From contig JAHBYV010000002.1 in NCBI GenBank assembly GCA_019635795.1, positions 62,001-126,000 on the forward strand: a stretch of 64,000 nucleotides of DNA. Direction: 5' to 3'. The notes beneath the pieces are model-generated. The model was given only the letters and a program-made list of their open reading frames with translations. It was not told the origin of the DNA and ran no database searches. Each line of letters opens with the position of its first letter. Position 1 is the first letter of the stretch. Made by a program: the position numbers and the translations under genes. This DNA comes from Rhizobiaceae bacterium. GTDB lineage: Bacteria > Pseudomonadota > Alphaproteobacteria > Rhizobiales > Rhizobiaceae. This document shows positions 28,600-48,850 of this stretch, one piece after another.

Positions 28600-30582
28600 A
28601 TGACCGACCGCCGCGACGACGATTTCCGCGTGCGCCCCAGCGCCCCGAAGAACCGGGGCAAGGGCCAGGGGCAAAGCTTCGTTTCCAAGGTGCTCAGGCA
28701 GGCCGGCAAAGCCAGCAGCGGCAAGTCGGCGGTGCACCGTCCTGGGGCGGCTGGCACCGGCCAGCGGCCCGGCTCGCGGCTCGGGCGCGGCCATACGGCG
28801 GCGCGCTTCGCCGGGGCGAAGCTAACACCCATGTCGCGGCGCGTGACCATCAAGACCTTGCTGGTCAATCACCAGCGGGCCAGCCTGCAATCGCTCGCCA
28901 AGCACCTGCGCTACATCGAGCGCGACGGCGTGGGCCGCGATGGCGAACCGGGCCGGGCCTACGGGCCGCAGGCCGACGAAGCCGACCTGAACGCCTTCAA
29001 GGAACGCTGCGCCGACGACCGGCACCATTTCCGCTTCATTGTCTCGCCCGAGGATGGGGCCGAGCTGGACGACCTGCGCACTTATACCCGCCATCTGGTG
29101 AGCCGCATGGAAGCCGACTTGGGCACGCGGCTGGACTGGGTGGCAGTTGATCACTGGAACACCGACAACCCGCACACGCACATCGTCGTGCGCGGGCGCG
29201 ATGACACCGGCAAAGACCTCATCATCGCGGGCGACTACATCGCCCACGGTTTCCGCCATCGTGCCGCCGAGTTGGCGACCGAATGGCTGGGGCCGCGCAC
29301 CGAGTTGGAGATCCAGCAGACCTTGGGGCGCGAGGTGGAACAGGCGCGGTGGACAAGCCTGGATCGCACCTTGCAGCGCGAATCCGGCGAGGATGGCCGG
29401 GTGCAGATCGAACGCTTCAGGGAGCCGAACTTGCAACGCCAACGCCTGCTGCTGATCGGCCGCCTGCAACGCTTGCAGCGTCTGGGCCTGGCCGACGAGA
29501 CGCAGCCCGGCACCTGGGCCATTCATGCCGATGCGGAAAAGACCCTGCGTGCCCTGGGCGAGCGTGGCGACATTATCCGCACGATGCAGCGAGCCATGAG
29601 CGGGCAGCCGCGCGAGCTGGCAGTGTTCGAGCCGGGCGACGATGGCAGAACCATCCTTGGCCGCGTGGCCGCGAAGGGGCTGGCCGACGAACTGCACGAC
29701 CGGGGCTATCTGGTCATCGACGGCACGGACGGCAAGGCCCACTACGTCGCGCTGAATGTCCGCGACGAGCTGGCGAACTATCCCACAGGCGCGGTGGTGG
29801 AAGTGAAGGGTTCGGCCGACGTGCGTGCAGCCGACAAAAACATCGCCGCGCTGGCGAGCGATGGCCTGTACCGCGCCGATCACCACCTGGCAATCGAACA
29901 GGGCCGTGCCAAGGACGGGCGCGACCCGCAGGAAGTTGTCGCGGCGCATGTCCGGCGGCTGGAAGCCCTGCGCCGGACCGGCATCGTGGAGCGCGTCGCC
30001 GAAGGGCTATGGAAGGTGCCGGACGACCTGGCCGAGCGTGGCCGCCAGTACGACGCGCAGCGCCTGGGCGGCGTGGCCGTGGAGCTGAAATCTCACCTGC
30101 CCATCGAGCGGCAGGCCCGCGTGATCGGGGCCACCTGGCTCGACCAACAGTTGATCGGCGGTGGCTCGGGCCTGGGCGACCTGGGCTTTGGCGGCGACGC
30201 CAAGCAGGCCATACAGCAGCGTGCCGACTTCCTCGAAGAACAGGGGCTGGCCCAACGACGCGGCCAGCGCGTCATCCTCGCCCGCGACCTGCTGGGCACG
30301 CTGCGCAACCGAGAACTGGCGCAGGCCGCCAAGGACATAGCAGCGGAAACTGGCCTGGAGCATCGCCCGGTAGCCGACGGGCAGCGTGTGGCTGGCATCT
30401 ACCGGCGCTCCATCATGTTCGCCAGCGGGCGCTTCGCCATGTTGGACGACGGCTTAGGTTTCACGCTCGTGCCTTGGAAGCCCGTCATCGAACAGCGACT
30501 GGGCCAATCCCTGGCTGCCACAGTCCGCGGCGGGCATGTCTCCTGGGAACTCGGTCGCCAGCGCGGCCCATCTGTAGGCTAA
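28600..30582 (+). CDS. VirD2-type relaxase with DUF3363 domain
   Basis: Relaxase of 660 residues that should nick oriT and lead the strand into the recipient. It begins with a basic disordered region. The relaxase core has a conserved RASLQSLAKHLRYIERDGVG, HHFRFIVSPEDG and the three-histidine metal motif (DHWNTDNPHTHIVVRG). A DUF3363 region makes up the C-terminal half (AVEVKGSADVRAADKNI-like section and VIGATWLDQQLIGG). It is followed by the arsenic operon, which separates it from traG. Confidence 0.92.
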   Translation: MTDRRDDDFRVRPSAPKNRGKGQGQSFVSKVLRQAGKASSGKSAVHRPGAAGTGQRPGSRLGRGHTAARFAGAKLTPMSRRVTIKTLLVNHQRASLQSLAKHLRYIERDGVGRDGEPGRAYGPQADEADLNAFKERCADDRHHFRFIVSPEDGAELDDLRTYTRHLVSRMEADLGTRLDWVAVDHWNTDNPHTHIVVRGRDDTGKDLIIAGDYIAHGFRHRAAELATEWLGPRTELEIQQTLGREVEQARWTSLDRTLQRESGEDGRVQIERFREPNLQRQRLLLIGRLQRLQRLGLADETQPGTWAIHADAEKTLRALGERGDIIRTMQRAMSGQPRELAVFEPGDDGRTILGRVAAKGLADELHDRGYLVIDGTDGKAHYVALNVRDELANYPTGAVVEVKGSADVRAADKNIAALASDGLYRADHHLAIEQGRAKDGRDPQEVVAAHVRRLEALRRTGIVERVAEGLWKVPDDLAERGRQYDAQRLGGVAVELKSHLPIERQARVIGATWLDQQLIGGGSGLGDLGFGGDAKQAIQQRADFLEEQGLAQRRGQRVILARDLLGTLRNRELAQAAKDIAAETGLEHRPVADGQRVAGIYRRSIMFASGRFAMLDDGLGFTLVPWKPVIEQRLGQSLAATVRGGHVSWELGRQRGPSVG

Positions 30583-33744: not shown

Positions 33745-33822
33745 CAAGCGAAAGAGGATAGGAATGCTGCGTAAAAGGGGCGCTGCATTGAACAAGAACG
33801 GGTAGTCCACGGAGGAGTTCGT

Positions 33823-34503: not shown

Positions 34504-35448
34504 ATGCAACTACGACATCTGCGTTACTTCATTGCAGTCGCTGAAGAACTCCACTTCGCCCGCGCGGCCGAGAGACTGCATATCGAGCAGTCACCGCTGT
34601 CGCGCACTATCAAGGAGTTGGAGGAAGACTTGGGCGAACAGTTGTTTGTCCGAACCAGCCGCAGCACGCGCCTGACGCGGGCTGGCAAGCTGTTTTTGGA
34701 GCATGTTCCGCGCGTGTTCGCTGCCTTGCAGCAGGCCCGCGACAGCGTGAAGGCTGCGGCCAATGGCTTCCACGGCCAGTTGCGTATTGCCCTGTCCGAT
34801 GGCATCACGCCGCCGCGCCTACCGACCTTGCTCGCACTTTGCCGGCAGGAGGAACCAGAAGTCGATATCCGGCTGTTTCAGGTGCCCTTGTCGCAGCAAA
34901 TCAAGGGGCTGCAAGACGACTTGTACGACGTGGGCTTCGCGCAATCGGATGAAGTAGGCGAAGGTATCGCCGCCGAAGCCGTGTGGAATGACCCGTTGAT
35001 GGTGGCGGTGCCAGCACGCCATCATTTGCTCAAGCACCGACGCATCCCGCTGGACGAAGTGCTGCACTTTCCGCTGGTTCTCTGCGACCCGCAAGCATGT
35101 GAGGGCTACGCGCGACAGGTTGAACGTGTGCTGCGCCGCTCTGACCGGGAGCCTCTGATCGTCGAACGTGTTGCCTCATTCGACTTGATGATGGTGGTCG
35201 TATCGGCCGGCTTCGCCCTGGGGCTGGCTGGTGCTCCGCATATCGTGTCCAACCGGGAACCTGGCGTTGTGGCCCGGCCCTTGGCGGGCCGCTCGCCAAT
35301 GCTGACAACCTACTTGTTGCGACGCGAAGACGAGCGTTCGGAAGTGTTGTCCCGATTCATCGAACGGGTGCAGGCGATCGACTTGCCCGAAGGTGTGAGG
35401 CCCGTGCCGCCACCTCAGTCCGAATCACAGGAGGAATTCGAGCTATGA
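34504..35448 (+). CDS. LysR-family transcriptional regulator
   Basis: Regulator of 314 residues with an N-terminal HTH (MQLRHLRYFIAVAEELHFARAAERLHIEQSPLSRTIKELEEDLG) and a substrate-binding-like effector domain. It overlaps the following eexN-like gene by four bases, which ties it to the transfer region more than to the arsenic genes. LysR genes in this position occur in Tn4371-type ICEs. The effector is unknown. Confidence 0.9.
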   Translation: MQLRHLRYFIAVAEELHFARAAERLHIEQSPLSRTIKELEEDLGEQLFVRTSRSTRLTRAGKLFLEHVPRVFAALQQARDSVKAAANGFHGQLRIALSDGITPPRLPTLLALCRQEEPEVDIRLFQVPLSQQIKGLQDDLYDVGFAQSDEVGEGIAAEAVWNDPLMVAVPARHHLLKHRRIPLDEVLHFPLVLCDPQACEGYARQVERVLRRSDREPLIVERVASFDLMMVVVSAGFALGLAGAPHIVSNREPGVVARPLAGRSPMLTTYLLRREDERSEVLSRFIERVQAIDLPEGVRPVPPPQSESQEEFEL

Positions 35449-35936: not shown

Positions 35937-37943
35937 ATGCAAGCTCAGGGCGTGCTGTTCGGGCAGATCGCCGCCGTCTTCGGCATCGTGATCGCCGGCG
36001 TATGGGGTGCAACGCAATGGACAGCAGCCGCCCTGGGCTATCAACTACGCCTTGGCTCGCCCTGGTTTGATTTCTTCGGCACGCCGGTCTATCACCCCTG
36101 GCGGCTGTTCGAGTGGTGGTTTTTCTTCGATGCCTACGCGCCGCATGTCTTCGATATTGGCGGGGCCATCGCGGGCGGTAGCGGCTTGGTGGCGGTGGTG
36201 GTCGCCATCGCCATGTCGGTGTGGCGCTCCCGGCAATCGCGCCTTGTCACCACATACGGCTCGGCACGCTGGGCCGAAGCGGATGACGTTCGCAAGGCCG
36301 GGCTGACGCAACCGGTTGGCGTGTTCCTGGGCAAGTACCGCAACGAGTACCTGCGCCACGAAGGCCCGGAACACGTCCTGACCTTCGCGCCCACGCGCTC
36401 GGGCAAAGGCGTCGGCCTGGTGGTGCCCACGCTGCTTTCGTGGCCCGCATCCGCCGTCATTCACGACATTAAAGGCGAGAACTGGCAGATCACCGCCGGC
36501 TGGCGCTCGCGTTTCTCACATTGCCTGCTGTTCAACCCGACCGATGCAAAGTCGGCAGCCTACAACCCGCTGCTGGAAGTACGGCGCGGCGCGCATGAAG
36601 TGCGCGACGTGCAGAACATCGCGGACATTCTCGTTGACCCCGAAGGGGCGCTGGAGAAGCGCAACCACTGGGAGAAGACCAGCCACGCGCTGCTGGTCGG
36701 AGCCATTCTGCATGTGCTCTATGCGGGCGAGGACAAGACGCTGCGCGGCGTTGCCAACTTCCTCTCCGACCCAGCCAGCCCGTTCGAGCTGACCTTGCAC
36801 CAGATGATGACGACGAAGCACCTGGCCGATGCACCGCACCCGGTTGTCGCGTCCGCTGCCCGCGAAGTGCTGAACAAGTCGGACAACGAGCGTTCGGGCG
36901 TGTTGAGCACCGCCATGTCGTTCCTCGGCCTGTACCGCGACCCCACGGTGGCCGAAGTCACCTCGCGCTGCGACTGGCGCATCGCCGACCTGATCGCATC
37001 CGAGCATCCCGTCTCGCTGTATCTGGTAGTGCCGCCCTCGGACATTTCCCGCACCAAACCGCTCATTCGCCTGATCCTCAACCAGATCGGGCGACGGCTT
37101 ACCGAGTCGCTCGACGGCAGCGACGGCATCGAGCGCCGCCACAAGCTGCTGCTGATGCTCGACGAGTTCCCGGCGCTGGGCCGCCTGGACTTCTTCGAGA
37201 CGGCGCTTGCCTTCATGGCTGGCTACGGCATTCGCAGCTTCCTCATCGCGCAGAGCCTGAATCAGATCGACAAAGCCTACGGCCAGAACCATTCAATTCT
37301 GGACAACTGCCATGTCCGCGTGACGTTTGCGACCAACGACGAACGCACGGCCAAACGGATCTCCGAAACGCTGGGCACCGCCACCGAACTGCGCGCGCAG
37401 CGCAACTATGCCGGCCACCGGCTCGCGCCGTGGCTCGGGCATCTGATGGTGTCGCGGCAGGAAACGGCCCGCCCGCTGCTGACACCGGGCGAAGTCATGC
37501 AGCTTCCGACCGACGAATCAGTGGTCATGGTGTCCAGCGTGGCACCGATCAAGGCGAAGAAGCTGCGCTATTACGCGGACGCCAATTTCAAGCGTCGCGT
37601 GCTGCCACCGCCCACGCTGGCGGACGGGCAGTACGCAGACGCGCCGCCGTCGCGGCCCGACGACTGGAGCGGGCTGGCGATTCCTTCCGTGCCCGCTGCA
37701 CCGGCCACGGCATCCTCCGATGGCCTGGAGAACTCGGCTTCGGCCGACGACGGCGGCCCGCGCCGCCAGCCCGAGCTTTCCGAAACCGTCGCCTACGACC
37801 CCGAGCTGGCCGCGCCCGCGGCCGACCTTGGGCTGCTCGATGACGACGACCTGCCGCTTCCCCTTCCTCGCCAGCTTGATCCGGCCATGCAGCGCACGGC
37901 CCGGCTGGCTTCCCTCGACCCCAACGACGGAATCGAGCTATGA
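35937..37943 (+). CDS. traG: TraG/VirD4 type IV coupling protein
   Basis: Coupling ATPase of 668 residues that brings the relaxase-DNA complex to the secretion channel. Two N-terminal membrane segments (about 5-30 and 75-98), Walker A APTRSGKGVGLV, Walker B LLLMLDEFPALG and the RSFLIAQSLNQI motif are present, followed by an acidic C-terminal tail. It overlaps the CopG-like gene by four bases and heads the transfer operon. Confidence 0.95.
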   Translation: MQAQGVLFGQIAAVFGIVIAGVWGATQWTAAALGYQLRLGSPWFDFFGTPVYHPWRLFEWWFFFDAYAPHVFDIGGAIAGGSGLVAVVVAIAMSVWRSRQSRLVTTYGSARWAEADDVRKAGLTQPVGVFLGKYRNEYLRHEGPEHVLTFAPTRSGKGVGLVVPTLLSWPASAVIHDIKGENWQITAGWRSRFSHCLLFNPTDAKSAAYNPLLEVRRGAHEVRDVQNIADILVDPEGALEKRNHWEKTSHALLVGAILHVLYAGEDKTLRGVANFLSDPASPFELTLHQMMTTKHLADAPHPVVASAAREVLNKSDNERSGVLSTAMSFLGLYRDPTVAEVTSRCDWRIADLIASEHPVSLYLVVPPSDISRTKPLIRLILNQIGRRLTESLDGSDGIERRHKLLLMLDEFPALGRLDFFETALAFMAGYGIRSFLIAQSLNQIDKAYGQNHSILDNCHVRVTFATNDERTAKRISETLGTATELRAQRNYAGHRLAPWLGHLMVSRQETARPLLTPGEVMQLPTDESVVMVSSVAPIKAKKLRYYADANFKRRVLPPPTLADGQYADAPPSRPDDWSGLAIPSVPAAPATASSDGLENSASADDGGPRRQPELSETVAYDPELAAPAADLGLLDDDDLPLPLPRQLDPAMQRTARLASLDPNDGIEL

Positions 37944-38404
37944 GCCATTACCGCCTGAATCTCTTTATCCAGCCCGAGCACGCCAAGCGCCTGGACGAGC
38001 TGGCCGCCAAGAAGGGCGTTTCCAAGTCGTCCATCGTCGCGGCGGCGCTCGCATCGTGGCTGTCGCCCGATGCCGCCGACCAGCGCGAGGCGGCCATCGC
38101 CAAGCGGCTGGATAGCCTGTCGCGCCATGCCGAGCGCATGGAGCGCGACCAGAACATCGCCATCGAAACGCTGGCGCTGTTCATCCGTTACTACCTCACG
38201 GTCAGCACGCCAGTCCCCGAGGCGCACCAAGAGGCTGCCCGCGCACAGGGCAAAGCGCGCTTCGAGCAGTTCACCGAGCAACTTGGCCGCCACCTGCTGC
38301 GGGGCCGCAGCCTGGTGCGCGACGTGGTGGAGGAACTGCATCCCGACCCAATGCGGATGGAAGACGCGGCGGCAGCCGCACAAGCGCAGGAGCGTGCGTC
38401 ATGA
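37940..38404 (+). CDS. CopG-like ribbon-helix-helix protein
   Basis: Protein of 154 residues with an N-terminal ribbon-helix-helix (YRLNLFIQPEHAKRLDELAAKKGVSKSSIVAAALASWL) and a helical remainder. It is found between traG and trbB in Tn4371-like elements. It could regulate the trb operon or assist relaxosome formation. It overlaps traG and trbB by four bases each. Confidence 0.85.
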   Translation: MSHYRLNLFIQPEHAKRLDELAAKKGVSKSSIVAAALASWLSPDAADQREAAIAKRLDSLSRHAERMERDQNIAIETLALFIRYYLTVSTPVPEAHQEAARAQGKARFEQFTEQLGRHLLRGRSLVRDVVEELHPDPMRMEDAAAAAQAQERAS

Positions 38405-39453
38405 GCGCCGTTCCGCAGTCCATGAGCGCCACGTCGCTCGACCGCCGCATCCAGATGCTGCGCACGGCGATGGGGCCGCTGATCGCCGCCGCGCTCGAAG
38501 ACCCGGACGTGGTGGAGGTGATGCTGAATCCTGATCGCACCCTTTGGGTGGATCGGCTTTCCAGTGGGCGCGCGCCGATGGGCGTGGAACTGCCCGATGC
38601 GGACGGCGAGCGAATCATCCGCCTGGTCGCAGCCCACGTCGGCGCAGAAGTCCATCGCGGCCAGCCGCTGCTGTCCGCCGAGTTGCCCGAAACGGGCGAA
38701 CGCTTCGAGGGCATCTTGCCGCCGGCAGCACCGGGGCCGGCTTTCGCGCTGCGCAAGCGCGCCATCGGCGTGATTCCGCTGGAGCGGTACGTCATCGACA
38801 GGATGATGACCAGCGCGCAGGCGGGCTTTCTCGTTCGCGCCGTGCGCGAGCGGCAGAACGTCTTGATCGCCGGCGCCACCAGCAGCGGCAAAACCACGCT
38901 CGCCAATGCGCTGCTAGCCGAGATCGCCGCCACGGGCGACCGCGTGCTCGTGCTCGAAGACACGGTGGAGCTGCAATGCGCGGCCCGCGACCACGTTCCC
39001 CTGCGCACCCGCGCAGGCGTGGTGTCGATGACCGAGCTGGTGCGCTCGTCCATGCGCCTGCGGCCTGATCGCGTCGTCGTTGGCGAAGTGCGCGGCGCCG
39101 AGGCACTGGATCTCATCAAGGTGTGGGGCACGGGCCACCCCGGCGGCATCGCCACGATCCATGCCGGCTCCGCGCTCGGCGCGCTGCTGCGCCTGGAGCA
39201 ACTGATTCTCGAAGTGGCGGTGAATCCGCCCCGTGCGCTGATTGCCGAGGCGGTCAACGTGGTGATCCACATCGCCGGACGCGGGCGCAAGCGCCGCATC
39301 GAGAGCATCGCCCGCGTCGTCGGCTTCGACGGCGTGGGCTACCAACTGGCGGACGCGCTGGAAACGCCGTTTCCCGAGCTTCCGCCACTTCCCAATGCCG
39401 CACCCGCTGCGGCGACTTCCCCAACCCCTGACTCACTTGGAGAACTGCCATGA
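38401..39453 (+). CDS. trbB: TrbB: conjugal transfer ATPase (VirB11)
   Basis: Secretion ATPase of 350 residues. An N-terminal PAS-like domain precedes Walker A (GATSSGKTTLAN), the Asp box (VLVLEDTVELQC), Walker B region (RVVVGEVRGAEALDLIK) and His box (GHPGGIATIHAGSA). It is a cytoplasmic hexamer that powers pilus assembly or substrate transfer. Confidence 0.95.
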   Translation: MSAVPQSMSATSLDRRIQMLRTAMGPLIAAALEDPDVVEVMLNPDRTLWVDRLSSGRAPMGVELPDADGERIIRLVAAHVGAEVHRGQPLLSAELPETGERFEGILPPAAPGPAFALRKRAIGVIPLERYVIDRMMTSAQAGFLVRAVRERQNVLIAGATSSGKTTLANALLAEIAATGDRVLVLEDTVELQCAARDHVPLRTRAGVVSMTELVRSSMRLRPDRVVVGEVRGAEALDLIKVWGTGHPGGIATIHAGSALGALLRLEQLILEVAVNPPRALIAEAVNVVIHIAGRGRKRRIESIARVVGFDGVGYQLADALETPFPELPPLPNAAPAAATSPTPDSLGELP

Positions 39454-39833
39454 CGCAGATGACTTTTCCTGCTTTCCGTTTTTCTGCAAATCCGGCATTG
39501 CGTCTTGCGCGGCTGCGCTGCCTGGCCCGCCCTGCGGGGCAAGGGCTGCTGCTGGCCGCGCTGCTGTTGTTCCTGGCCGGAACCGCGCAGGCCGCCGGTT
39601 CCTCGATGCCGTGGGAAGGCCCGCTGCAATCCATCCTCGAATCCATCCAGGGGCCGGTGGCGCGCATCGTCGCGGTCATCATCATCATTGCCACGGGCCT
39701 CGCGCTCGCGTTCGGCGACACGTCCGGCGGATTCCGCAAGCTGATCCAGATCGTCTTCGGTCTGTCCATCGCATTCGCCGCTTCGAGTTTCTTCCTGTCG
39801 TTCTTCAGCTTCTCCGGCGGGGCGGTCGTATGA
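39450..39833 (+). CDS. trbC: TrbC: pilin subunit (VirB2)
   Basis: Prepilin of 127 residues with a long N-terminal signal (hydrophobic 35-50, ending GTAQAAGSSMPWEGPLQ) and two membrane segments (RIVAVIIIIATGLALAFG and IVFGLSIAFAASSFFLSF). Probably matured with help from TraF. Confidence 0.92.
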   Translation: MTQMTFPAFRFSANPALRLARLRCLARPAGQGLLLAALLLFLAGTAQAAGSSMPWEGPLQSILESIQGPVARIVAVIIIIATGLALAFGDTSGGFRKLIQIVFGLSIAFAASSFFLSFFSFSGGAVV

Positions 39834-40102
39834 GTGCTCCGGACACCTTCGCGGCCGGCTTCGAGGTGCCGCTGCATCGGTCGCTCACGGAGCCGATTCT
39901 GCTGGGCGGTGCGCCGCGCACCGTGGCGATCGCCAACGGCACGCTGGCCGCGGCTGTCGGCCTGGGCCTGCAACTGTGGATTCCCGGCGTGGTGCTCTGG
40001 ATCGTCGGCCATTCTTTGGCGGTGTGGGGTGCGCGCGTTGATCCGCAGTTCATGCAGGTCTTCGCCCGGCACATCAAGCACCGCCCGCTGCTGGACGTGT
40101 GA
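39830..40102 (+). CDS. trbD: TrbD: VirB3-like membrane protein
   Basis: Protein of 90 residues with the VirB3 pattern (FEVPLHRSLTEPILLGGAPR) and a double hydrophobic segment (LAAAVGLGLQLWIPGVVLWIVGHSLAVW). Start overlaps the trbC stop. Confidence 0.93.
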   Translation: MSAPDTFAAGFEVPLHRSLTEPILLGGAPRTVAIANGTLAAAVGLGLQLWIPGVVLWIVGHSLAVWGARVDPQFMQVFARHIKHRPLLDV

Positions 40103-40117
40103 GGGGAGGACGCCGCG

Positions 40118-42571
40118 ATGCTGAATCTCGCCGAATATCGCCAGCGCCCGGCCTTGCTTGCCGACTGGCTGCCCTGGGCCGGGCTGGTCGCACCGGGCGT
40201 CGTCTTGAACAAGGATGGCAGTTTCCAGCGCACGGCCCGGTTTCGCGGGCCTGACCTCGACAGCGCGACGCAAGGCGAGCTGATAGCCACGTCGGCGCGG
40301 TTGAACAACGCGCTGCGCCGAATGGGATCGGGCTGGGCGCTGTTCATTGAAGCCGAACGCCGTCCCGCTGCCGACTATCCGCACTCGGAGTTTCCTGAGC
40401 CGCTGTCGTGGCTGGTGGACGAGGAACGTCGCGCCACCTTCGAGGACTCGGGCAACCACTTCGAGAGCGGCTATCACCTGACGCTGGTGTATCTGCCGCC
40501 CGAAGAATCACGCGCCCGCGCAGCGGGCATGCTGTACGAAAACCGGCCCACCGAAGGCGTGGACTGGCGCGGCCGACTCGATGCCTTCGTGGCGGAAACT
40601 GATCGCGTCTTTGACCTGCTCGATGGCGTGATGCCGGAAATCGCCTGGCTCGACGACAGCCAGACGCTGACCTACCTGCACGCGACCATCTCGACGCGGC
40701 GCTACCGCGTCGGCGTGCCCGAAGTGCCGTTCCACATCGACGCACTGCTGACCGACTCCGCGCTGGTCGGCGGCCTGGCGCCCATGCTGGGCGACCAACA
40801 CCTGCGGGTGGTGTCGGTGCGGGGCTTCCCGACCTCGACGTGGCCGGGGATTCTGGACGACCTCAACCGCCTGGGCTTTGCGTATCGCTGGAGTACGCGG
40901 TTTCTCTGCCTGGACAAAGCCGAGGCGGAAAAAGAACTTTCCCGCCTCCGTCGCCAGTGGTTCGCCAAGCGCAAGAACGTCGTCGCGCTGCTGCGCGAAA
41001 CGATCTTCCAGCAGGAAAGCCCGCTGGTCGATACCGACGCCAGCAACAAAGCCGCCGACGCCGATGCAGCCTTGCAGGAGCTGGGCAGTGATCAAGTCGC
41101 CTTCGGCTACCTCACCGCCACGGTGACGGTGCTCGATGCCGACCCGGCCGTGGCCGACGAGAAGCTGCGTATGGTGGAGCGCGTCATCCAAGGCCGGGGC
41201 TTCGTCACCATCCCCGAAACGCTCAACGCCGTGGATGCGTGGCTGTCGTCCATTCCCGGCAACGCCTATGCCAATGTCCGGCAGCCCATCGTCTCGACGC
41301 TGAACCTGGCGCACATGATGCCGCTGTCGGCGGTATGGGCTGGCCCGGAGAAGAACGAACACCTCGACGGCCCGCCGGCCATCGTCACCCGCACCGATGG
41401 CGCCACGCCATTCCGATTTGTTACGCACATCGGCGACGTGGGGCACATGGCCGTGGTCGGCCCGACCGGCATGGGCAAATCCGCATTTCTAGCCGTGTTG
41501 GCGATGCAGTTTCGCCGCTATCCGCGTTCGCGCATCTTCGCATTCGACATGGGGCGCTCGATGCGCGCCACGATCCTCGGGCTGGGCGGCGAGCACTACG
41601 ACCTGGGTGTCGATGGCGACATCGCGTTCCAGCCGCTCGCGCGCATCGACCGCGATGGCTATCGCACCTGGGCGGCCGAATGGGTGGAAGGCCGGCTGCT
41701 GCATGAAGGCGTGGCGGTCGGACCCGACGAGAAGGCGGCCATCTGGTCGGCGCTGGGCAGCCTTGTCGGTGCGCCGCTGGAGCAGCGCACGATGACCGGC
41801 CTGTCGGTGCTGCTGCAATCGAACGCGCTGCGCCAGGCACTCGCGCCCTACGTGCTCGGTGGCGCGCACGGCAAGCTGCTGGACGCCGACCACGACCGGC
41901 TGGGTACGGCCGACGTGCAGTGTTTCGAGATGGAGGAATTGATGGCCAGCCCGGCCGCCGTGCGGTCGGTTCTGGGCTATCTGTTCGCGCGCTTCGATGA
42001 GCGTTTCGACGGCGCACCGACCCTGCTGATTCTCGATGAGTCCTGGCTGTTCCTGGACGACCCGATGTTCGCCGCGCGTATCCGCCAGTGGCTCAAGACG
42101 CTGCGCAAGAAGAACGTCAGCGTCATCTTCGCCACGCAGAGCCTCGCTGACATCCAGAACTCCAGCATCGCGTCCGCGATCATCGAAAGCTGCGCCATCC
42201 GCATCTTCCTGCCGAACCCGCAGGCGACCGAGCCGCAGATTCGCACGATCTATCAGGGCTTCGGCCTCAACAGCCGGCAGATCGAAATCGTCGCCACCGC
42301 GCAGCCCAAGCGCGACTACTACTACCAATCCCGCCTCGGCAACCGCCTGTTCGACCTCGACTTGGGGTCGGCGACGCTGGCGTTTGCGGGCGCTTCTACG
42401 CCGCAAGACCAGCGCGACATAGACCGCGTGCTGCTGGACGCTGGCGCACCCGGCTTCGCGGGCGCCTGGCTGCGCCATCGCGGCCTCGATTGGGCCGCCG
42501 ACCTGCTGCCCTCATTCCCCGGCCTCGCGCCGGGTTCCCTCGCTGACCAACCTCTGGAGAACCTGCCATGA
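40118..42571 (+). CDS. trbE: TrbE: type IV secretion ATPase (VirB4)
   Basis: Large ATPase of 817 residues. Walker A GPTGMGKSAFLA, Walker B LLILDESWLFLDD and the following SVIFATQSLADI are all present. It energises pilus assembly at the inner membrane. Length is normal for TrbE. It overlaps trbJ by four bases. Confidence 0.96.
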   Translation: MLNLAEYRQRPALLADWLPWAGLVAPGVVLNKDGSFQRTARFRGPDLDSATQGELIATSARLNNALRRMGSGWALFIEAERRPAADYPHSEFPEPLSWLVDEERRATFEDSGNHFESGYHLTLVYLPPEESRARAAGMLYENRPTEGVDWRGRLDAFVAETDRVFDLLDGVMPEIAWLDDSQTLTYLHATISTRRYRVGVPEVPFHIDALLTDSALVGGLAPMLGDQHLRVVSVRGFPTSTWPGILDDLNRLGFAYRWSTRFLCLDKAEAEKELSRLRRQWFAKRKNVVALLRETIFQQESPLVDTDASNKAADADAALQELGSDQVAFGYLTATVTVLDADPAVADEKLRMVERVIQGRGFVTIPETLNAVDAWLSSIPGNAYANVRQPIVSTLNLAHMMPLSAVWAGPEKNEHLDGPPAIVTRTDGATPFRFVTHIGDVGHMAVVGPTGMGKSAFLAVLAMQFRRYPRSRIFAFDMGRSMRATILGLGGEHYDLGVDGDIAFQPLARIDRDGYRTWAAEWVEGRLLHEGVAVGPDEKAAIWSALGSLVGAPLEQRTMTGLSVLLQSNALRQALAPYVLGGAHGKLLDADHDRLGTADVQCFEMEELMASPAAVRSVLGYLFARFDERFDGAPTLLILDESWLFLDDPMFAARIRQWLKTLRKKNVSVIFATQSLADIQNSSIASAIIESCAIRIFLPNPQATEPQIRTIYQGFGLNSRQIEIVATAQPKRDYYYQSRLGNRLFDLDLGSATLAFAGASTPQDQRDIDRVLLDAGAPGFAGAWLRHRGLDWAADLLPSFPGLAPGSLADQPLENLP

Positions 42572-43293
42572 AAAAGCGTCTTGTCGCCGCCGCCGTCGCG
42601 GCCATGCTTTGCACCGCCACCGCCCATGCGCAATGGGTCGTGGTCGATCCCACGAACCTCGTGCAGAACACGCTGACCGCGATCCGCACGCTGGAGCAGA
42701 TCAACAACCAGATCCAGCAGCTCCAGAACGAAGCGCAGATGCTGATGAACCAGGCGCGCAACCTCGCCAGTCTGCCGTCCAGCGTGGTCGGCCAGTTGCG
42801 CGCCAACCTGGCAACGACCGAGCGACTGATCGCCCAGGCCAGGGGCTTGGCCTACGACGTGACGAATCTTGATCGGGAGTTCGCGCGCCTGTACCCGGAG
42901 CAATACGCCGCGACCGTCAGCGGCGACCAGATGTACCGCGATGCGCAGGAGCGTTGGCGGAACACGCTCCACGGCTTGCAGACCACCATGCAGATGCAGG
43001 CGCAGGTGTCACAGAACCTGGGCGAAGACGAAAGCGTGCTGGCCGATCTCGTTGGCAAGAGCCAGTCGGCCGAAGGTGCGTTGCAGGCGATGCAGGCCAT
43101 GAATCAGTTGCTGGCCTTGCAGGCCAAGCAGTCGATCCAATCGCAGCGGCTCCAGATCACGCAAGACCGGGCGGCGTCGCTGGAGCTGGCGCGGCAGGCG
43201 GCAGCCACGGAGCGCGCCCGCGAAGTGCGGCGGCGTTTCCTGGGCGAAGGCACGCCGTACACGCCCCAGTCAGTGAACTTCTACGGCAACTGA
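42568..43293 (+). CDS. trbJ: TrbJ: VirB5-like minor pilus protein
   Basis: Periplasmic protein of 241 residues with a signal peptide (AAAVAAMLCTATAHAQ) and a long helical, Gln-rich body (LEQINNQIQQLQNEAQMLMNQARNLASL). TrbJ works at the pilus tip or base. Confidence 0.93.
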   Translation: MKKRLVAAAVAAMLCTATAHAQWVVVDPTNLVQNTLTAIRTLEQINNQIQQLQNEAQMLMNQARNLASLPSSVVGQLRANLATTERLIAQARGLAYDVTNLDREFARLYPEQYAATVSGDQMYRDAQERWRNTLHGLQTTMQMQAQVSQNLGEDESVLADLVGKSQSAEGALQAMQAMNQLLALQAKQSIQSQRLQITQDRAASLELARQAAATERAREVRRRFLGEGTPYTPQSVNFYGN

Positions 43294-43305
43294 CGGGAGG
43301 CCGCC

Positions 43306-43638
43306 ATGCGATGCGTCCTCGCCCCGTCTGTTGTGGTGCTTGTCGTGCTGCTGGCCGCTTGCGGCAAGCAGCCGGCCGACAACCTTGCCGATGCTCTGGC
43401 CGCCGATCCCGTGCGGCTGAAGGCATTGCGCGCGCAATGCGCGGCAGACCGGCAGGCCGCGGGCGAGGACGCTTGCCGCGCCGCCGCCGAAGCCTTCCGG
43501 CGGCGCTTCTTCTCCGGCCAGGCTGGGCCGGATGAATACCAGACCTTGGCCGACCTGCCGCCGATCCCGCCGAGCTTCGATGAACCGGCCGATGGCATGG
43601 CGCCGGCCGTTCCCGCCGAACCGGAGGACACGCCATGA
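43306..43638 (+). CDS. EexN/TrbK-like lipoprotein (entry exclusion), copy 2
   Basis: Lipoprotein of 110 residues (signal VVVLVVLLAACGKQ) in the usual trbK place between trbJ and trbL. Its DALAADPVRLKALRAQCAADRQAAGEDACRAAAEAFRRRFF aligns with the 35445 protein, so the two are paralogues. Expected to block redundant entry of a second ICE. Confidence 0.85.
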   Translation: MRCVLAPSVVVLVVLLAACGKQPADNLADALAADPVRLKALRAQCAADRQAAGEDACRAAAEAFRRRFFSGQAGPDEYQTLADLPPIPPSFDEPADGMAPAVPAEPEDTP

Positions 43639-45020
43639 ATGACGTGACCATCATCGACCAATTTCTCAACACCTTTGCCGCTTATATCGACTCGGGTTTC
43701 GGGCTGCTGCGGGGCGAAGTGGCGTTCCTCACGGCCACGCTGATCGTCATCGACATGACGATCGCCGGCCTGTATTGGGCCATGAGCCATGCCACCGGCC
43801 AGGGCGAGGACGTGATCGCCAAGCTGCTGCGCAAGGTGCTCTACGTCGGTGCCTTCGCCTACATCATCAATAACTTCAACTGGCTGGCCAGCATCGTGTT
43901 CCGCTCGTTTGCGGGATTGGGCATCACCGCCACCGGCTCGGCCATCACGATGGAAAACTTCCTGCAGCCGGGCCGGTTGGCGAAAACCGGCATCGACGCC
44001 GGGGCGCCGATTCTGGAGCAGATCGGCGAGATGGCGGGCTTTCCCGAAGTGTTCGTGAACCTCGACCCCATCGTGGTGATGTTCCTCGCGTGGCTGGTCG
44101 TGGTCTTGTGCTTCTTCGTGCTGGCGATCCAACTGTTCATCACGCTGATCGAGTTCAAGCTGACCACGCTCGCCGGATTCGTGCTGGTGCCATTCGCGCT
44201 CTGGAACAAGACCGCGTTCCTCGCCGAAAAGGTCTTGGGCAACGTGGTGGCCTCCGGCGTCAAGGTTCTGGTGCTGGCCGTGATCGTCGGTATCGGCTCG
44301 GGCTTGTTCGCTCAGTTCCAAGTCCATCCCGCCGAGCCGTCTATCGACCACGCGCTGGTCATCATGCTGGCCTCGCTCACCTTGCTGGCGCTCGGGATCT
44401 TCGGCCCCGGCATCGCCACGGGCCTCGTGTCCGGTGCGCCGCAGCTCGGCGCTGGCGCAATGGCCGGTGCTGCTGTCGGCGCTGCCGGCACGGCCGTCGC
44501 CATCGGCGCCGCCGCGACGGGCGTGGGTGGCGCCGTGGCTGCTGGCGCGCGCATGGCCCCGGGTGCCGCCAAGCTGGCCGGTAGCGGTGCGCGCGCCGCC
44601 ACGTCGGCGGCCAGCAGTGCGAAGTCGGCGTTCCAGGCCGGTTCCGCCGCCGCTGGCGGCGGCGCAAAGGGCGCGATGGCGGGCCTAGGCAACGTCGCCA
44701 AGACCGGCGCGCAGTCCACCGGACGCGCGGCTGCATCCCGCGCCTCCGCTGCCGGGCAACGCATGGCCGCTCCCTTCCGCGCTGGCTGGAATGGCGCTGC
44801 CGCCGATGGCGGCGCGGGCGCGGCATCCGGTCAGGGCGCCGCAGACGAGGCCGCATCCGGCGCCGCTACTGCGCAGACGCAGGAACAGCCCGCTTGGGCC
44901 AAGCGCCTGCATCGTCGCCAGCAACTCACCCATGCCGCGACCACCACCGCCCACGCGCTGCGCGGTGGCGATGGCGGCGGCTCCGGCCAGGGGCCGAGCC
45001 TGCGCGATTCCGATTCATAA
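43635..45020 (+). CDS. trbL: TrbL: VirB6-like polytopic channel protein
   Basis: Protein of 461 residues with six or so membrane segments in the first 290 residues (e.g. VIVMFLAWLVVVLCFFVLAIQ) and a long Ala/Gly-rich tail. It probably forms the inner-membrane channel. The tail varies widely in the family. Confidence 0.93.
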   Translation: MNDVTIIDQFLNTFAAYIDSGFGLLRGEVAFLTATLIVIDMTIAGLYWAMSHATGQGEDVIAKLLRKVLYVGAFAYIINNFNWLASIVFRSFAGLGITATGSAITMENFLQPGRLAKTGIDAGAPILEQIGEMAGFPEVFVNLDPIVVMFLAWLVVVLCFFVLAIQLFITLIEFKLTTLAGFVLVPFALWNKTAFLAEKVLGNVVASGVKVLVLAVIVGIGSGLFAQFQVHPAEPSIDHALVIMLASLTLLALGIFGPGIATGLVSGAPQLGAGAMAGAAVGAAGTAVAIGAAATGVGGAVAAGARMAPGAAKLAGSGARAATSAASSAKSAFQAGSAAAGGGAKGAMAGLGNVAKTGAQSTGRAAASRASAAGQRMAAPFRAGWNGAAADGGAGAASGQGAADEAASGAATAQTQEQPAWAKRLHRRQQLTHAATTTAHALRGGDGGGSGQGPSLRDSDS

Positions 45021-45032
45021 GGAGAACCGACC

Positions 45033-45737
45033 ATGCGATTCAAGAAACCGCAGGTGCGCTACGCCGACACGCCGCAGCCTGCCACGCCGTACCAAGCTGC
45101 CGGCCAGGTGTGGGACGACCGTATCGGAACGCCGCGCGTGCAGGCGAAGAACTGGCGGCTGATGGCCTTCGGCTGCCTCACGCTCGCGCTGTTGATGGCC
45201 GGCGGCCTGGTGTGGCGCTCGGCGCAGTCCTTCGTGACGCCCTACGTCGTAGAGGTGGACAACGCGGGCCAAGTGCGCGCCGTGGGCGAAGCCGCCACGC
45301 CGTACCGGCCCAACGATGCGCAGACCGCGTACCACATCGCGCGCTTCGTGACGCTGGTGCGCTCGCTGTCCATCGACCCCATCGTGGTGCGGCAGAACTG
45401 GCTCGACGCCTACGACTACACGACCGACAAGGGCGCGGCCGTGCTCAACGACTACGCACGGGTCAACGACCCGTTCGCGCGCATCGGCAAGGAGTCGGTA
45501 ACGGTGCAGATCACCAGCGTCGTGCGCGCCAGCGACACGTCTTTCAACGTTCGCTGGACGGAACGCCGCTACGTCAACGGCGCCGCGGCGGGCTTGGAGC
45601 GGTGGACGGCAGTGGTGTCCATCGTGCTTCAGCCGCCGCGCACCGAAGAACGCCTGCGCAAGAACCCCCTGGGCATCTACGTCAACGGCCTGTCGTGGAG
45701 CCGCGAACTGGATTCTTCCGAAGGAGCCAAGCCATGA
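45033..45737 (+). CDS. trbF: TrbF: VirB8-like assembly factor
   Basis: Bitopic protein of 234 residues with a membrane segment (LMAFGCLTLALLMAGGLVW) and a periplasmic VirB8 domain (WLDAYDYTTDKGAAVLNDY, SFNVRWTERRYVNG). Start follows AAGGAG. Overlaps trbG. Confidence 0.94.
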   Translation: MRFKKPQVRYADTPQPATPYQAAGQVWDDRIGTPRVQAKNWRLMAFGCLTLALLMAGGLVWRSAQSFVTPYVVEVDNAGQVRAVGEAATPYRPNDAQTAYHIARFVTLVRSLSIDPIVVRQNWLDAYDYTTDKGAAVLNDYARVNDPFARIGKESVTVQITSVVRASDTSFNVRWTERRYVNGAAAGLERWTAVVSIVLQPPRTEERLRKNPLGIYVNGLSWSRELDSSEGAKP

Positions 45738-46738
45738 ATGATCTTTTCCGTAAAACCGCTTTGCCGGTGATCCTGCTGGCCTCGACGGTCTTGTTCGCGG
45801 GCTGCGCCACGCAGGGCAAACCGCCGCCGACCATCTCGCTCGATGAGCCGGTGCAGGCCCAGCCGCTGCCAGAGCCGCCCGCGCCGGTGGAGGTGGTGGC
45901 CGTGCCCGAGGTGCTGCCGATGCCAGCCCAGTTGAAGCCAGAGCCCGAAGCCGAGGACGCCAAGCCCGTGCCAGAGCCAGCCGATGAGAAGGTGCGCGTC
46001 TCGCGCGCCAATGCCGAGGCGCGTGTCGCGCCCACGCGCGAGGGCTATGTGAACGCGATCCAGGTCTGGCCCTTCACCGATGGCGCGCTGTACCAGGTCT
46101 ATGCGGCAGTGGGCCGTGTGACGGTGATTGCGCTCCAGCCGGGCGAGGAACTGGTGACGGTGGCCGCTGGCGATACCGTGCGCTGGATCGTGGGCGATAC
46201 GTCCAGCGGCAGCGGTGCCGACCTGCGCGTCAATGTGCTGGTCAAGCCGATCCGCTCGGGCCTCAAGACCAATCTCGTCATCACCACCAGCCGCAGGACG
46301 TACTTGCTGGAGCTGACCTCGACGGAAAAGACGTGGATGGCGTCGGTGTCCTGGGAGTACCCGCGCGACCGGATGCTGGCTTTGCAGCGCCAGGCGCGGG
46401 CGGCCAGCGCCGCCGCGCCGGTGGACTCCGGCTTGTCGCTGGAAAACCTGCGCTTCCGCTACGCGGTCAGCGGTAGCAACCCGCCGTGGAAGCCGCTGCG
46501 CGCGTTCGACGACGGGCAGAAGGTCTATATCCAGTTCCCCGCCGGCATCGCGCAAGGCGAGCTGCCGCCGCTGTTCGTGATCGGGCCGGAAGGCGACGGG
46601 CAACTGGTCAACTACCGCTTCCGCTCACCGTACTACATCGTGGATCGGCTGTTTGGCGCCGCCGAACTGCGCCTGGGCAGAGACAAGGGCGACGTGGTGC
46701 GAATTGAGCGCACGGACGGCGTTGCGCGGAGGAACTGA
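45734..46738 (+). CDS. trbG: TrbG: VirB9-like outer-membrane complex protein
   Basis: Protein of 334 residues with a lipoprotein-type signal (VILLASTVLFAGCATQ), a Pro/Glu-rich linker and a VirB9 domain (YQVYAAVGRVTVIALQPGEELV, LLELTSTEKTWMASVSWEYP). It forms the outer core with TrbI. Confidence 0.94.
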   Translation: MNDLFRKTALPVILLASTVLFAGCATQGKPPPTISLDEPVQAQPLPEPPAPVEVVAVPEVLPMPAQLKPEPEAEDAKPVPEPADEKVRVSRANAEARVAPTREGYVNAIQVWPFTDGALYQVYAAVGRVTVIALQPGEELVTVAAGDTVRWIVGDTSSGSGADLRVNVLVKPIRSGLKTNLVITTSRRTYLLELTSTEKTWMASVSWEYPRDRMLALQRQARAASAAAPVDSGLSLENLRFRYAVSGSNPPWKPLRAFDDGQKVYIQFPAGIAQGELPPLFVIGPEGDGQLVNYRFRSPYYIVDRLFGAAELRLGRDKGDVVRIERTDGVARRN

Positions 46739-46740
46739 CC

Positions 46741-48000
46741 ATGAGCCAGGACGACACCCCCGACCTCGCCACGCCGCAGGCGGGCAAGGTTGCGCCGGAG
46801 GCGGTGGCGCTACGCGCCCAGCCGCGCCCGGTCACGCGCCTGAACCGGCGCACGCTGGCCATCCTCGTCGGCGGCCTGTCGGTCGCCGTGCTCGGGGCCA
46901 CGATCTGGTCGCTACAGCCGCAGCGGCGCGGGGCCAACGAGCAGACCGAGCTTTACAACGTCGATCACGTGTCCAAGTCCGAAGGGCTGGATGGCCTGCC
47001 GGCCGACTACTCGAAGCTGACGCCGAAGGTGCCCGAGCTGGGGCCGCCGCTACCGGGCGACCTCGGACCGGCCATCGTGGCCTCGCAGCAGCCGGCCGTG
47101 GCCGCCTACTCGGCGCCCGGCCACGACCCGAATGACGCCTTGCGCAAGGAGGCGGAAGCCGCTGCGGCTTCGTCGGTGTTCTTCCGCTCGGGCGGCCAAG
47201 CCGCCGCCATGGTGGCGCAGGCGGCGCCGGGTGCAGCAAGCACGCTCGCGGCCTTCGACCCGCTCGCTGCCGGGCCCGCTTCGACATCGGCCCAGCCCGC
47301 CGACCCGACCGCCGTGCAGAACCGGCAAGATCAGAAAGAGGCATTCCTGAAAGCCGGTTCTACGGAAACCCGCAATTCCGGCAACCTGGCGTTGCCGGCG
47401 TCGCCGTATCAGGTGATGGCGGGAACGGTGATCGCCGGTGCGCTGGTGACGGGTATCAAGTCGGACTTGCCGGGCGACGTGATCGCCACGGTGACGGAGC
47501 CGGTCTATGACTCGGCCACGGGCAAGTTCCTGCTGATCCCGCAAGGATCGCGCATCCTCGGGCGCTACAACAGCCAGGTCAGCTACGGGCAGAGTCGCGT
47601 GCAGGTGGTGTGGAACCGGGTCATCCTGCCCGACACGTCCTCGCTGGCGCTCGACAACCTTGTCGGCACCGACCCGGCCGGCTACGCCGGCCTGGAGGAC
47701 GACGTGGACTGGCATTGGAATCGCATCATCGCGGGCGCGGTGCTGACGACGCTGCTGGGCGTCGGCGCTGAGTTGGCTGCGCCGGAGAACCGGCAGGACG
47801 GCAACCGCATCGTCATTGCCGGACGCGACAGCGCACAGGACAGCATCAATCAGGTCGGCCAGGAGATGACCCGGCGCAACATGAACATCCAGCCGACGCT
47901 GACGACGCGGCCGGGCCTGCCGGTTCGCATCATCGTCAACCGGGATCTGGTGCTGCGGCCGTACCAGCCGCTGTTCTTCAATCGGGGAGTTTCGCAATGA
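46741..48000 (+). CDS. trbI: TrbI: VirB10-like scaffold protein
   Basis: Protein of 419 residues with an N-terminal membrane segment (LAILVGGLSVAVLGATIWSL), an Ala/Pro-rich linker and a C-terminal VirB10 domain (YQVMAGTVIAGALVTGIKSDLPG, LLIPQGSRILGRYNSQV, RIIVNRDLVLRPY). It spans both membranes. Confidence 0.95.
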   Translation: MSQDDTPDLATPQAGKVAPEAVALRAQPRPVTRLNRRTLAILVGGLSVAVLGATIWSLQPQRRGANEQTELYNVDHVSKSEGLDGLPADYSKLTPKVPELGPPLPGDLGPAIVASQQPAVAAYSAPGHDPNDALRKEAEAAAASSVFFRSGGQAAAMVAQAAPGAASTLAAFDPLAAGPASTSAQPADPTAVQNRQDQKEAFLKAGSTETRNSGNLALPASPYQVMAGTVIAGALVTGIKSDLPGDVIATVTEPVYDSATGKFLLIPQGSRILGRYNSQVSYGQSRVQVVWNRVILPDTSSLALDNLVGTDPAGYAGLEDDVDWHWNRIIAGAVLTTLLGVGAELAAPENRQDGNRIVIAGRDSAQDSINQVGQEMTRRNMNIQPTLTTRPGLPVRIIVNRDLVLRPYQPLFFNRGVSQ

Positions 48001-48239
48001 GCGCGACCAAGAAGCTGCGGCTCGGGCCGCTGCCCAAGACCGAGAGCGTCAAGCTGACCTTTGCCTGCCCGGCCAGCCTGAAAGCCGACCTCGACCGCTA
48101 CGCCGCGTTGCACGCGCAGGCGTATGGCGAGGCGGTCGATGCCATGACGCTGATCCCGCACATGCTGGAAGCCTTCATGGCCGGGGATCGTGGCTTCAAG
48201 CGCACACAGCCCAAGAACGGAAAAGCCGCCCCTGCGTGA
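47997..48239 (+). CDS. DUF2274 protein, last gene of the trb operon
   Basis: Protein of 80 residues: KLRLGPLPKTESVKLTFACPASLKADLDRYAALHAQAYGE with LIPHMLEAFMAGDRGF, the DUF2274 pattern always found after trbI in these ICEs. Probably RHH-like. Its last codons overlap the hairpin that ends the tRNA-Leu transcript from the other strand. Confidence 0.9.
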   Translation: MSATKKLRLGPLPKTESVKLTFACPASLKADLDRYAALHAQAYGEAVDAMTLIPHMLEAFMAGDRGFKRTQPKNGKAAPA

Positions 48240-48251
48240 GCAGGGGCGGCT
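48220..48251 (-). terminator. Terminator of the ICE tRNA-Leu (and hairpin ending trb)
   Basis: A perfect 12 bp stem AGCCGCCCCTGC/GCAGGGGCGGCT with a GTGA loop. On the minus strand it is followed by TTTT and lies 7 bases beyond the CCA end of the tRNA, so it should end the tRNA transcript. On the plus strand it overlaps the last codons of the trb operon. Confidence 0.75.
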
Positions 48252-48257
48252 CTGGAT

Positions 48258-48576
48258 TGGTGCCCGAGGCCGGAATCGAACCGGCATGACCGTGAGGTCG
48301 AGGGATTTTCTTACCACTTCGGCTTTCGCCGCCGTCCTGCTCACACAGGGCGTTCGTGGTCTGGAGCACGCCTTCACCATAGCCTTACAGCCGTAGGTGC
48401 CCGCCGTCTGCTCTCTACACCTTCCCAAGCGCATAGCTTGGGCTTGGCTCGGCGTTGGCTCGGATGCCGAAGCATCCAGGGCTTTCGCCGAATTTGACGG
48501 GCTTCACTTCGGGCGTTTCCCCCCGAAGGCTCAAATTGTTCAAGTCCCTTGTGTCTACCGATTTCACCACTCGGGC
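48258..48576 (-). tRNA. ICE-encoded tRNA-Leu(UAA) with group I intron
   Basis: The 5' exon (48542-48576, 35 nt) and 3' exon (48258-48309, 52 nt) join to an 87-nt tRNA-Leu. All arms pair: acceptor GCCCGAG/CTCGGGC, anticodon stem AGGGA/TCCCT around loop CTTAAAA (anticodon UAA), variable arm GACC/GGTC, T arm GCCGG-TTCGATT-CCGGC, and an encoded CCA. The intron splits the anticodon between U34 and A35. The gene lies 160 bp inside the right ICE end in the same orientation as the split host tRNA, and probably replaces it. Exon sequences differ from the host copy and look gamma- or betaproteobacterial. Confidence 0.95.
48310..48541 (-). ncRNA. Group IC3 self-splicing intron in tRNA-Leu
   Basis: Intron of 232 nt with no ORF. 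Catalytic-core signatures on the minus strand match the well-known Azoarcus tRNA-Ile intron: GTCAAATTCGGCGAAAGCC (48480-48500), GCCAACGCCGAGCCAAGCCC (48440-48459), AAGGTGTAGAGA...AGACGGC (48403-48423) and CTATGGTGAAGGC (48370-48382). The 5' exon ends in U and a guide GAGCC near the intron start can pair with exon GACUU through a U-G at the splice site, with one A-C mismatch. The last intron base is G. Confidence 0.93.
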
Positions 48577-48737
48577 GTAGCGCGCGATGCGCTGGAAACA
48601 CCTACCTCCATCTACTGGCGCCTAGTTGGCTCCTAACCGTCAAGCCGAGCTATGAAGCGACATCTTGGATGCTCGCAAACCGTTGTCACTATTGACCTTC
48701 TGGCCCGGTAGTTCAAGCAGAAAGGACTTGACAAAAC
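48577..48737. other. ICE right-end spacer
   Basis: 161 bases between the ICE tRNA-Leu and the attR core. No gene is seen. Transcription from the host tRNA promoter would have to cross it to reach the ICE tRNA. Arm sites for the integrase may lie here. Confidence 0.5.
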
Positions 48738-48747
48738 AGATTTTAAG
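48738..48747. repeat. attR core (anticodon-loop direct repeat)
   Basis: AGATTTTAAG, identical to 5152-5161. Host tRNA sequence (TCTCTTCCG on the plus strand) begins directly after it. Confidence 0.85.
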
Positions 48748-48779
48748 TCTCTTCCGTCTACCAATTTCGGCAAGCGGCC
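48738..48779 (-). pseudogene. 5' half of host tRNA-Leu(UAA), separated by the ICE
   Basis: Minus-strand sequence GGCCGCT (acceptor), the D arm containing AAATTGGTAGACGG, then AGAGA-CTTAAAA-TCT, where it stops matching a tRNA. The base-paired partners of its acceptor and anticodon stems are at 5108-5161. What follows in the ICE (GTTTTGTCAAG) cannot form a variable or T arm, so the tRNA is not rebuilt. Confidence 0.92.
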
Positions 48780-48804
48780 GAAGCACTGATGCTTCGCTGC
48801 GTTC

Positions 48805-48831: not shown

Positions 48832-48850
48832 CCGTGTTTGCTGGCATATT

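Follow-up and report, generated by a model that had tools for sequence, protein, structure and literature searches.

A Tn4371-like ICE that splits a host tRNA-Leu(UAA) gene and carries an intron-bearing replacement

Described elements that integrate at tRNA genes

Integration into a needed tRNA gene with a tRNA supplied by the element itself has been described for actinophages as tRNA-dependent lysogeny, and the tRNA of the element was shown to be required (PMC10865867, 2024, available passages). According to these passages the actinophages resemble the ICE described here in having a tyrosine integrase, an attB inside a needed tRNA gene, a short core, a target gene that is not rebuilt, and a supplied tRNA of the same isotype. 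The systems covered there are phages and not ICEs; in that text the word 'conjugative' has 0 occurrences and 'intron' occurs once, in the title of a reference. The available passages contain nothing on protection of the supplied tRNA from the integrase.

Among conjugative elements, Tn4371 and the ICETn4371 elements have related integrases (66-70% for the loci of this type among the relatives analysed here) and a similar gene plan, but their attB resembles TTTTTCAT and lies outside tRNA genes, unlike that of the ICE described here (PMC2789088, in part). ICEKKS102Tn4677, for which excision and transfer were reported, has the core GATTTTAAG (PMC11448139, in part), and the same core was described for ICEbphKF708 (PMC6563109, in part). 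A review gives tRNA-Leu as the main target of ICEKKS102, with integration at the 3' end of that gene (PMC9960961, in part), whereas the family examined here uses the anticodon loop and carries a whole intron-bearing replacement. The word 'intron' has 0 occurrences in PMC11448139, PMC6563109 and PMC9960961, and a search of the openly accessible literature returned no description of an intron-bearing replacement tRNA in an ICE. A role of introns in protecting tRNA genes against integration was put forward by Randau and Soll (as cited in the available part of PMC4390854). As here, a disrupted tRNA gene would bar site-specific integration; that idea concerns host genes, whereas the gene considered here belongs to a mobile element.

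The split host gene and the replacement tRNA

The window, which is the whole stretch of DNA that was analysed, comprises 64,000 nt of a Rhizobiaceae bacterium (GCA_019635795.1, JAHBYV010000002.1, positions 62,001-126,000). In window coordinates, a 43.6-kb Tn4371-like ICE is bounded by the two cores at 5152-5161 and 48738-48747. The features at and between the two junctions are as follows.

5108..5161, minus strand: 3' half of the host tRNA-Leu(UAA) with CCA, at the ICE left junction, 100% identical to positions 33-86
5152..5161: left core repeat AGATTTTAAG, read from the sequence, containing the published core GATTTTAAG
5338..6537, plus strand: tyrosine integrase, 399 aa, with Arm-DNA-bind_3 and Phage_integrase domains (Pfam)
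17186..19246, plus strand: protein with ParB N-terminal domain (Pfam PF02195)
28474..30582, plus strand: relaxase-like protein of the DUF3363 type (Pfam PF11843, weak PF03432)
34504..35448, plus strand: LysR-type regulator (NCBIfam LysR models, all below cut-off)
35937..37943, plus strand: TraG/VirD4-type coupling protein (Pfam PF02534)
38401..48000, plus strand: mating-pair genes, with TrbB, a TrbE/VirB4-type ATPase, TrbJ, TrbL, TrbF and TrbI identified
48222..48255, minus strand: GC-rich hairpin directly downstream of the ICE tRNA, a possible terminator (sequence)
48258..48309, minus strand: 3' exon of the ICE tRNA-Leu(UAA), 52 nt (ARAGORN, alignment)
48310..48541, minus strand: 232-nt group I intron interrupting the anticodon loop as CTT/AAAA (Rfam, ARAGORN, alignment, fold)
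48542..48576, minus strand: 5' exon of the ICE tRNA-Leu(UAA), 35 nt (ARAGORN, alignment)
48577..48737, minus strand: spacer of ~160 bp between right core and ICE tRNA, homologous in near relatives
48738..48747: right core repeat AGATTTTAAG, read from the sequence
48738..48779, minus strand: 5' half of the host tRNA-Leu(UAA), at the ICE right junction, 100% identical to positions 1-42

As in other Tn4371-like elements, a phage-type tyrosine integrase (Pfam) lies at one end of the ICE, and the relaxase, TraG and the trb cluster lie toward the opposite end, where the cluster closes with TrbI near the right junction. The window core AGATTTTAAG includes the 9-bp core GATTTTAAG of the ICEKKS102Tn4677 branch and differs from the attB TTTTTCAT of the 2009 Tn4371 description. 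We use the label Tn4371-like because later papers count elements with GATTTTAAG in the family (PMC11448139, in part). The LysR-type regulator is possibly the traR of the Tn4371 family. Cargo beside the integrase (7327-12270) gave candidate defence matches to PD-Lambda-3_B (8286-9104) and PDC-S06 (9631-12270), and cargo at 32587-34497 encodes proteins resembling arsenite methyltransferase and aquaporin-family channels, with matches below the curated cut-offs.

An earlier note made from the sequence of this DNA had claimed that the host tRNA-Leu(UAA) gene is cut in its anticodon loop, that neither ICE end repairs it, and that a complete intron-containing tRNA-Leu(UAA) lies just inside the right end; our analysis bore out all three statements. 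The halves at 5108-5161 and 48738-48779 both match the joined gene at 100%, the reference being an 86-nt host tRNA assembled from the two flanks. Read on the tRNA strand, the core is CTTAAAATCT and covers the whole 7-nt anticodon loop plus three stem bases. Between the two halves the acceptor stem pairs at 7/7 and the anticodon stem at 5/5 positions. A base-level reading of the left and right ICE ends found no continuation of the tRNA, so the host gene is unrepaired, and the short core together with a tRNA that is unrebuilt at both junctions is as in tRNA-dependent integration. Repair at a junction was rejected as a reading, the missing half being absent from both ends and the unrepaired structure recurring in relatives, and a chance origin of the halves was rejected in view of two 100% halves with pairing stems and the recurrence. 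When the stems were tested in 21 elements, the acceptor stem paired at 7/7 in 18, the parser having missed the stem in the other three (L131, L142, L176), and the anticodon stem paired at 5/5 in 17 and at 4/5 in four. The swap control of this test was a weak one because the stem is common to most hosts, and 7/7 pairing was also obtained in 144 of 420 swapped pairs.

The replacement was detected by ARAGORN with introns allowed as a complete tRNA-Leu(taa) at 48258-48576 on the minus strand, with a 232-nt intron at position 36; a plain tRNA scan of the window returned no tRNA. It has the same isotype and anticodon as the host target (ARAGORN), again as in tRNA-dependent integration. The Rfam group I intron model RF00028 matches 48361-48551 (minus strand) over its whole length with 39.2 bits and an E value of 1.8e-8; the intron is not listed at the gathering threshold because this score is below the RF00028 gathering score of 50. 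A conserved core, the U-G pair at the 5' splice site and the G at the 3' end of the intron agree with group I, and the intron is presumably of subgroup IC3. For the fold we aligned 20 intron-bearing tRNA genes, comprising 15 of the 23 UAA copies (that of the window included), one CAA copy and four genes from the survey of the order. RNAalifold gave 85 nested pairs, 35 of which were kept through a change on both sides in one or more sequences. At the 5' splice site, 19 of the 20 genes have a U-G pair and the CAA copy (L225) has C-G. The window copy is identical over 319 bases to L200. A consensus promoter scan of 48180-48960 gave 0 sites, and a terminator scan of the region gave one site (48226-48243), which is not significant against a shuffle mean of 1.0.

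The earlier note had also suggested looking for other tRNA-Leu(UAA) genes in the genome and comparing the locus with ICE-free relatives, and both comparisons came out in favour of its reading. The genome is a draft of 30 contigs that is 99.28% complete and gave 41 tRNA matches at E<=10, 39 of them above the cut-off. No second tRNA-Leu(UAA) was found in this draft: at the tRNA matches ARAGORN read Leu genes with anticodons CAA, TAG, CAG and GAG, and the only copy with TAA was that of the ICE, by which a second intact UAA gene in the window genome was rejected. Two genomes of the genus (G001, G002) and one of the family (G005) keep an intact intron-less tRNA-Leu(UAA) that is 98, 98 and 93% identical to the joined halves, and by sequence comparison this gene is the empty site. 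The arrangement of an unrepaired split with a whole replacement is thereby well supported at the level of sequence.

Recurrence in related elements

An integrase match at E<=1e-60 was obtained in 18 of 397 genomes of the order, the window genome included, and six of the 18 integrases are 66-67% identical. The named collection yielded at least 259 confirmed relatives, of which the best 80 were retained. The left ends of the best 80 fall into three groups: 25 adjoin the 3' half of a tRNA-Leu(UAA) and 12 the 3' half of a tRNA-Leu(CAA), in both cases cut at the loop, and 43 adjoin neither tRNA half. Three of the 43 stand apart: L141 begins at a contig edge, and in L134 and L140 the core is a look-alike that lies outside a tRNA. 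A T-tract was present at all 15 upstream stretches inspected out of the remaining 40 left ends, a result that fits the published TTTTTCAT site of the Tn4371 type (PMC2789088, in part). As a control, 27 of the 40 Tn4371-type genomes were searched with the replacement tRNA. Six had a match at E<=1e-8, three of them at full length (G479, G486, G494); these three have no split half in the surrounding 3.3 kb and look native.

In the UAA clade, 24 of 28 genomes gave some right-end match, which in G432 and G452 was only a piece of the 3' exon. The right end was obtained in 22 of the 28, and all 22 carry an intron-bearing tRNA-Leu(UAA) (20 by ARAGORN, G458 by eye, and G455 as a partial copy split over contigs). 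It was not obtained in G432, G433, G447, G451, G452 and G457. Thus the search for elements with an intron-bearing tRNA at the att side, which the earlier note had named as a check, showed that the arrangement recurs. The query consisted of the intron-bearing copy and the spacer; a diverged intron-less right end could be missed by it, but because the spacer is included a near intron-less right end would still have matched. The uninterrupted-loop pattern described below would likewise have revealed an uninterrupted copy, provided that its D-arm was of the usual kind. The spacer between core and tRNA measures 160-197 bp in the relatives where it was measured. In the 20 UAA copies parsed, the exons meet as GGACTT/AAAATCC. 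The usual exon arms are AGGGACTT and AAAATCCCT, and most UAA copies read AGGGACTTAAAATCCCT when the intron is removed, which is the very arm hit in the hosts of L127, L130, L131, L138, L142, L144 and L176. Deviating exon arms occur in the copies of L135 and L138 (GGGGACTT/AAAATCCCC) and of L176 (GCAGACTT/AAAATCTGC).

One of the published elements belongs to this group. The host of ICEbphKF708, C. basilensis KF708, is represented by L146 and L212 on one contig of 119,585 bases, where the two ends lie ~61.8 kb apart, the published size. This element splits tRNA-Leu(UAA) and carries an intron-bearing copy.

The related elements in tRNA-Leu(CAA) show the same kind of split, with 3' and 5' halves on one contig in G111, G329, G405 and G279. 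Searching 18 genomes yielded 15 intron-less replacement tRNA-Leu(CAA) genes in 14 of them, all with U32 and all reading GATTCAAAA, whereas the 12 host halves beside U32 copies all have C32 and read GACTCAAAA; three of the 15 copies (L256, L257, L260) were assigned by sequence only, with no host half in the stretch. G467 yielded no CAA replacement. In Variovorax sp. Root473 (G436) the tRNA-Leu(CAA) gene is likewise split, by a second element whose integrase is 66% identical and whose replacement tRNA-Leu(CAA) contains a group I intron. Following this observation, eight genomes with missed or incomplete right ends were searched again with another query, and three of them, the Burkholderiales G466, G468 and G470, have a split half and an intron-bearing C32 copy. 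Four of the remaining five were without a match, and G285 gave only the previously seen L081. All four intron-bearing CAA copies have C32; three of the four were sought, and found, after the first. The first CAA query, being intron-less, had missed intron-bearing copies. In G468 the element spans only ~18 kb between its split halves, and some of the relatives may thus be less than a complete ICE.

G436 has two elements, in tRNA-Leu(UAA) and in tRNA-Leu(CAA), and both replacements bear introns. Group I introns in tRNA-Leu(CAA) were seen at L224, L225, L297, L298 and L299; for L224, from Cupriavidus basilensis, the part that was read contains no split half, and the gene may be native.

Proposed shielding of the replacement and alternative readings

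None of the 42 replacement copies (23 UAA including that of the window, and 19 CAA) has an uninterrupted target loop, each being either altered or interrupted there. Copies within a clade share descent, and the 42 represent about four replacement lineages and not 42 events. What the earlier note had not pointed out is that the intron lies within the 7-nt core loop, and that in the intron-less sisters a base of this loop is changed. It had called the destruction of the anticodon loop combined with a spliced replacement a different strategy. The split without rebuilding and the intron-bearing replacement stand, but the basic strategy was already known in actinophages (PMC10865867, in part).

We consider it likely that this is tRNA-dependent integration in an ICE, with a replacement that is unable to serve as attB for the integrase of the same element. 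The tyrosine integrase would recombine the ICE at the anticodon loop of tRNA-Leu(UAA), presumably the place of the exact crossover, with the stem arms acting as flanking inverted repeats, and integration would split the host gene without rebuilding it. The cell is proposed to survive because the ICE brings a whole tRNA-Leu(UAA) ~160 bp inside the right junction, a copy that would then be essential. This tRNA lies just downstream of the host 5' half on the same strand, so that its transcription probably starts at the host tRNA promoter; in several hosts, genes for tRNA-Gly and tRNA-Cys lie upstream. The transcript of the ICE tRNA would be matured by group I self-splicing. An intron-less replacement would present the anticodon arm used as attB again, ~160 bp from the junction. 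With the intron lying between positions 34 and 35 of the tRNA, the 7-bp loop is interrupted; the DNA copy would then be no attB, while the spliced RNA would be a normal tRNA. In the CAA sister elements an intron, or the exchange of C32 for U32, would have the same effect.

Whether the intron is kept in order to hide the needed tRNA from the element's own integrase, with U32 giving the same end in the sisters, we regard as evenly balanced, although shielding is the simplest reading that covers both the intron and U32. The intron could instead be a passenger, the needed tRNA having been taken from an intron-bearing host and the intron splicing well at little cost. Achromobacter insuavis and A. 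pulmonis have tRNA-Leu(UAA) genes with an intron that look native and share 84% identity with the ICE copy, and others occur in genomes of the order of the host. By sequence, betaproteobacteria are a possible donor of the intron-bearing tRNA, from Achromobacter genes. An intron-bearing tRNA match at E<=1e-8 was obtained in 44 of the 397 genomes of the order, a count that includes the window, tRNA-Arg introns and exon-only matches. U32 was seen by eye in 44 of 150 tRNA-Leu(CAA) genes among the matches listed for the order, one of the 44 being an element copy. As both U32 and introns exist natively, the altered loops may simply come from the donors. What speaks against a passenger is that replacements of different origin (GCCCGAG-type UAA, GCGGACG-type UAA (L221), Burkholderiales-type CAA and alphaproteobacterial CAA) are all altered or interrupted, that the loop is changed by two different means, and that 0 of 42 copies keep the target loop. 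We therefore rate the passenger explanation as unlikely, while taking it seriously.

A much fainter prospect is that the ICE copy is dispensable, its function being taken over by a further host tRNA that is intact. A search with an uninterrupted-loop pattern in 29 genomes, that of the window included, gave 25 places in 24 genomes, of which 21 are split 5' halves and four are intact genes (G444, G445, G447, G451). For 20 of the 21 genomes with a split 5' half the pattern found no uninterrupted tRNA-Leu(UAA), in line with the lack of a second UAA gene in the 99.28% complete window genome. G444, a MAG, is alone in showing an intact tRNA-Leu(UAA) beside the split one, which would suit dispensability, as would a second, intact C32 tRNA-Leu(CAA) in G469 (L272). 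In G445 and G451 the ICE sits outside a tRNA, and G447 is a MAG. The four uninterrupted copies (L230, L233, L250, L254) have no split half within the surrounding stretch that was read. Six CAA-clade genomes of the order survey, to which the single-gene check in this clade applies, have one uninterrupted tRNA-Leu(CAA) each by pattern, and the replacement itself fits that pattern. These drafts are incomplete, and the pattern requires the usual D-arm and would overlook an intact gene in which this arm is unusual; the host split half of G454, with the altered core GGACAAAAAATC, was missed by the pattern.

It is very improbable that the replacement tRNA mainly serves to evade a tRNA-cutting defence. 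Loop changes in tRNAs against such defence are cited in PMC10865867 (in part), and a cargo ATPase weakly matches PrrC (E 0.00087), its main matches being to other models; the predicted loop of the spliced ICE tRNA, CUUAAAA, is however the same as that of the host tRNA. Islands in tRNA genes as a rule rebuild the gene (PMC4383910, in part), and the window copy could accordingly be a case with decayed ends of an element that normally does so. The probability of this is negligible, as the missing half is at neither end and the same structure, with a spacer of 160-197 bp, is found in many hosts.

If the intron is indeed kept for shielding, a self-splicing intron would here have a selected function, which is to give a mobile element self-immunity. 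The proposed reading as a whole would carry tRNA-dependent integration beyond actinophages to conjugative elements with hosts among the alpha-, beta- and gammaproteobacteria, and it would account for the use of the middle of a single-copy tRNA gene by a transferable element. The integrated element could then not be lost by simple deletion of its tRNA. The intron-less target with its intron-bearing copy, and the C32 target with its U32 copy, would be natural pairs for the idea that an interruption of the anticodon loop guards a tRNA gene against integration.

A distant search with the window right end matched 1,281 plasmid records, three of which were inspected. The Klebsiella resistance plasmid NZ_CP139688.1 (L001, 4800-5400) has a related right end near aac(3)-IId, with a complete tRNA-Leu(UAA) that contains a group I intron and is preceded by a core-like GGACTTAAAA and a spacer that resembles the alphaproteobacterial end L221. 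This piece of the plasmid occurs in 635 of 5,426 complete E. coli genomes, 624 of which have at least 80% of it, and in six rows among the matches listed the E. coli piece is without an annotated feature. The Cupriavidus megaplasmids pBB1 and p1 of KK10 (L002, 4001-4337; L003, 12001-12334) hold right-end remnants that are cut within the intron.
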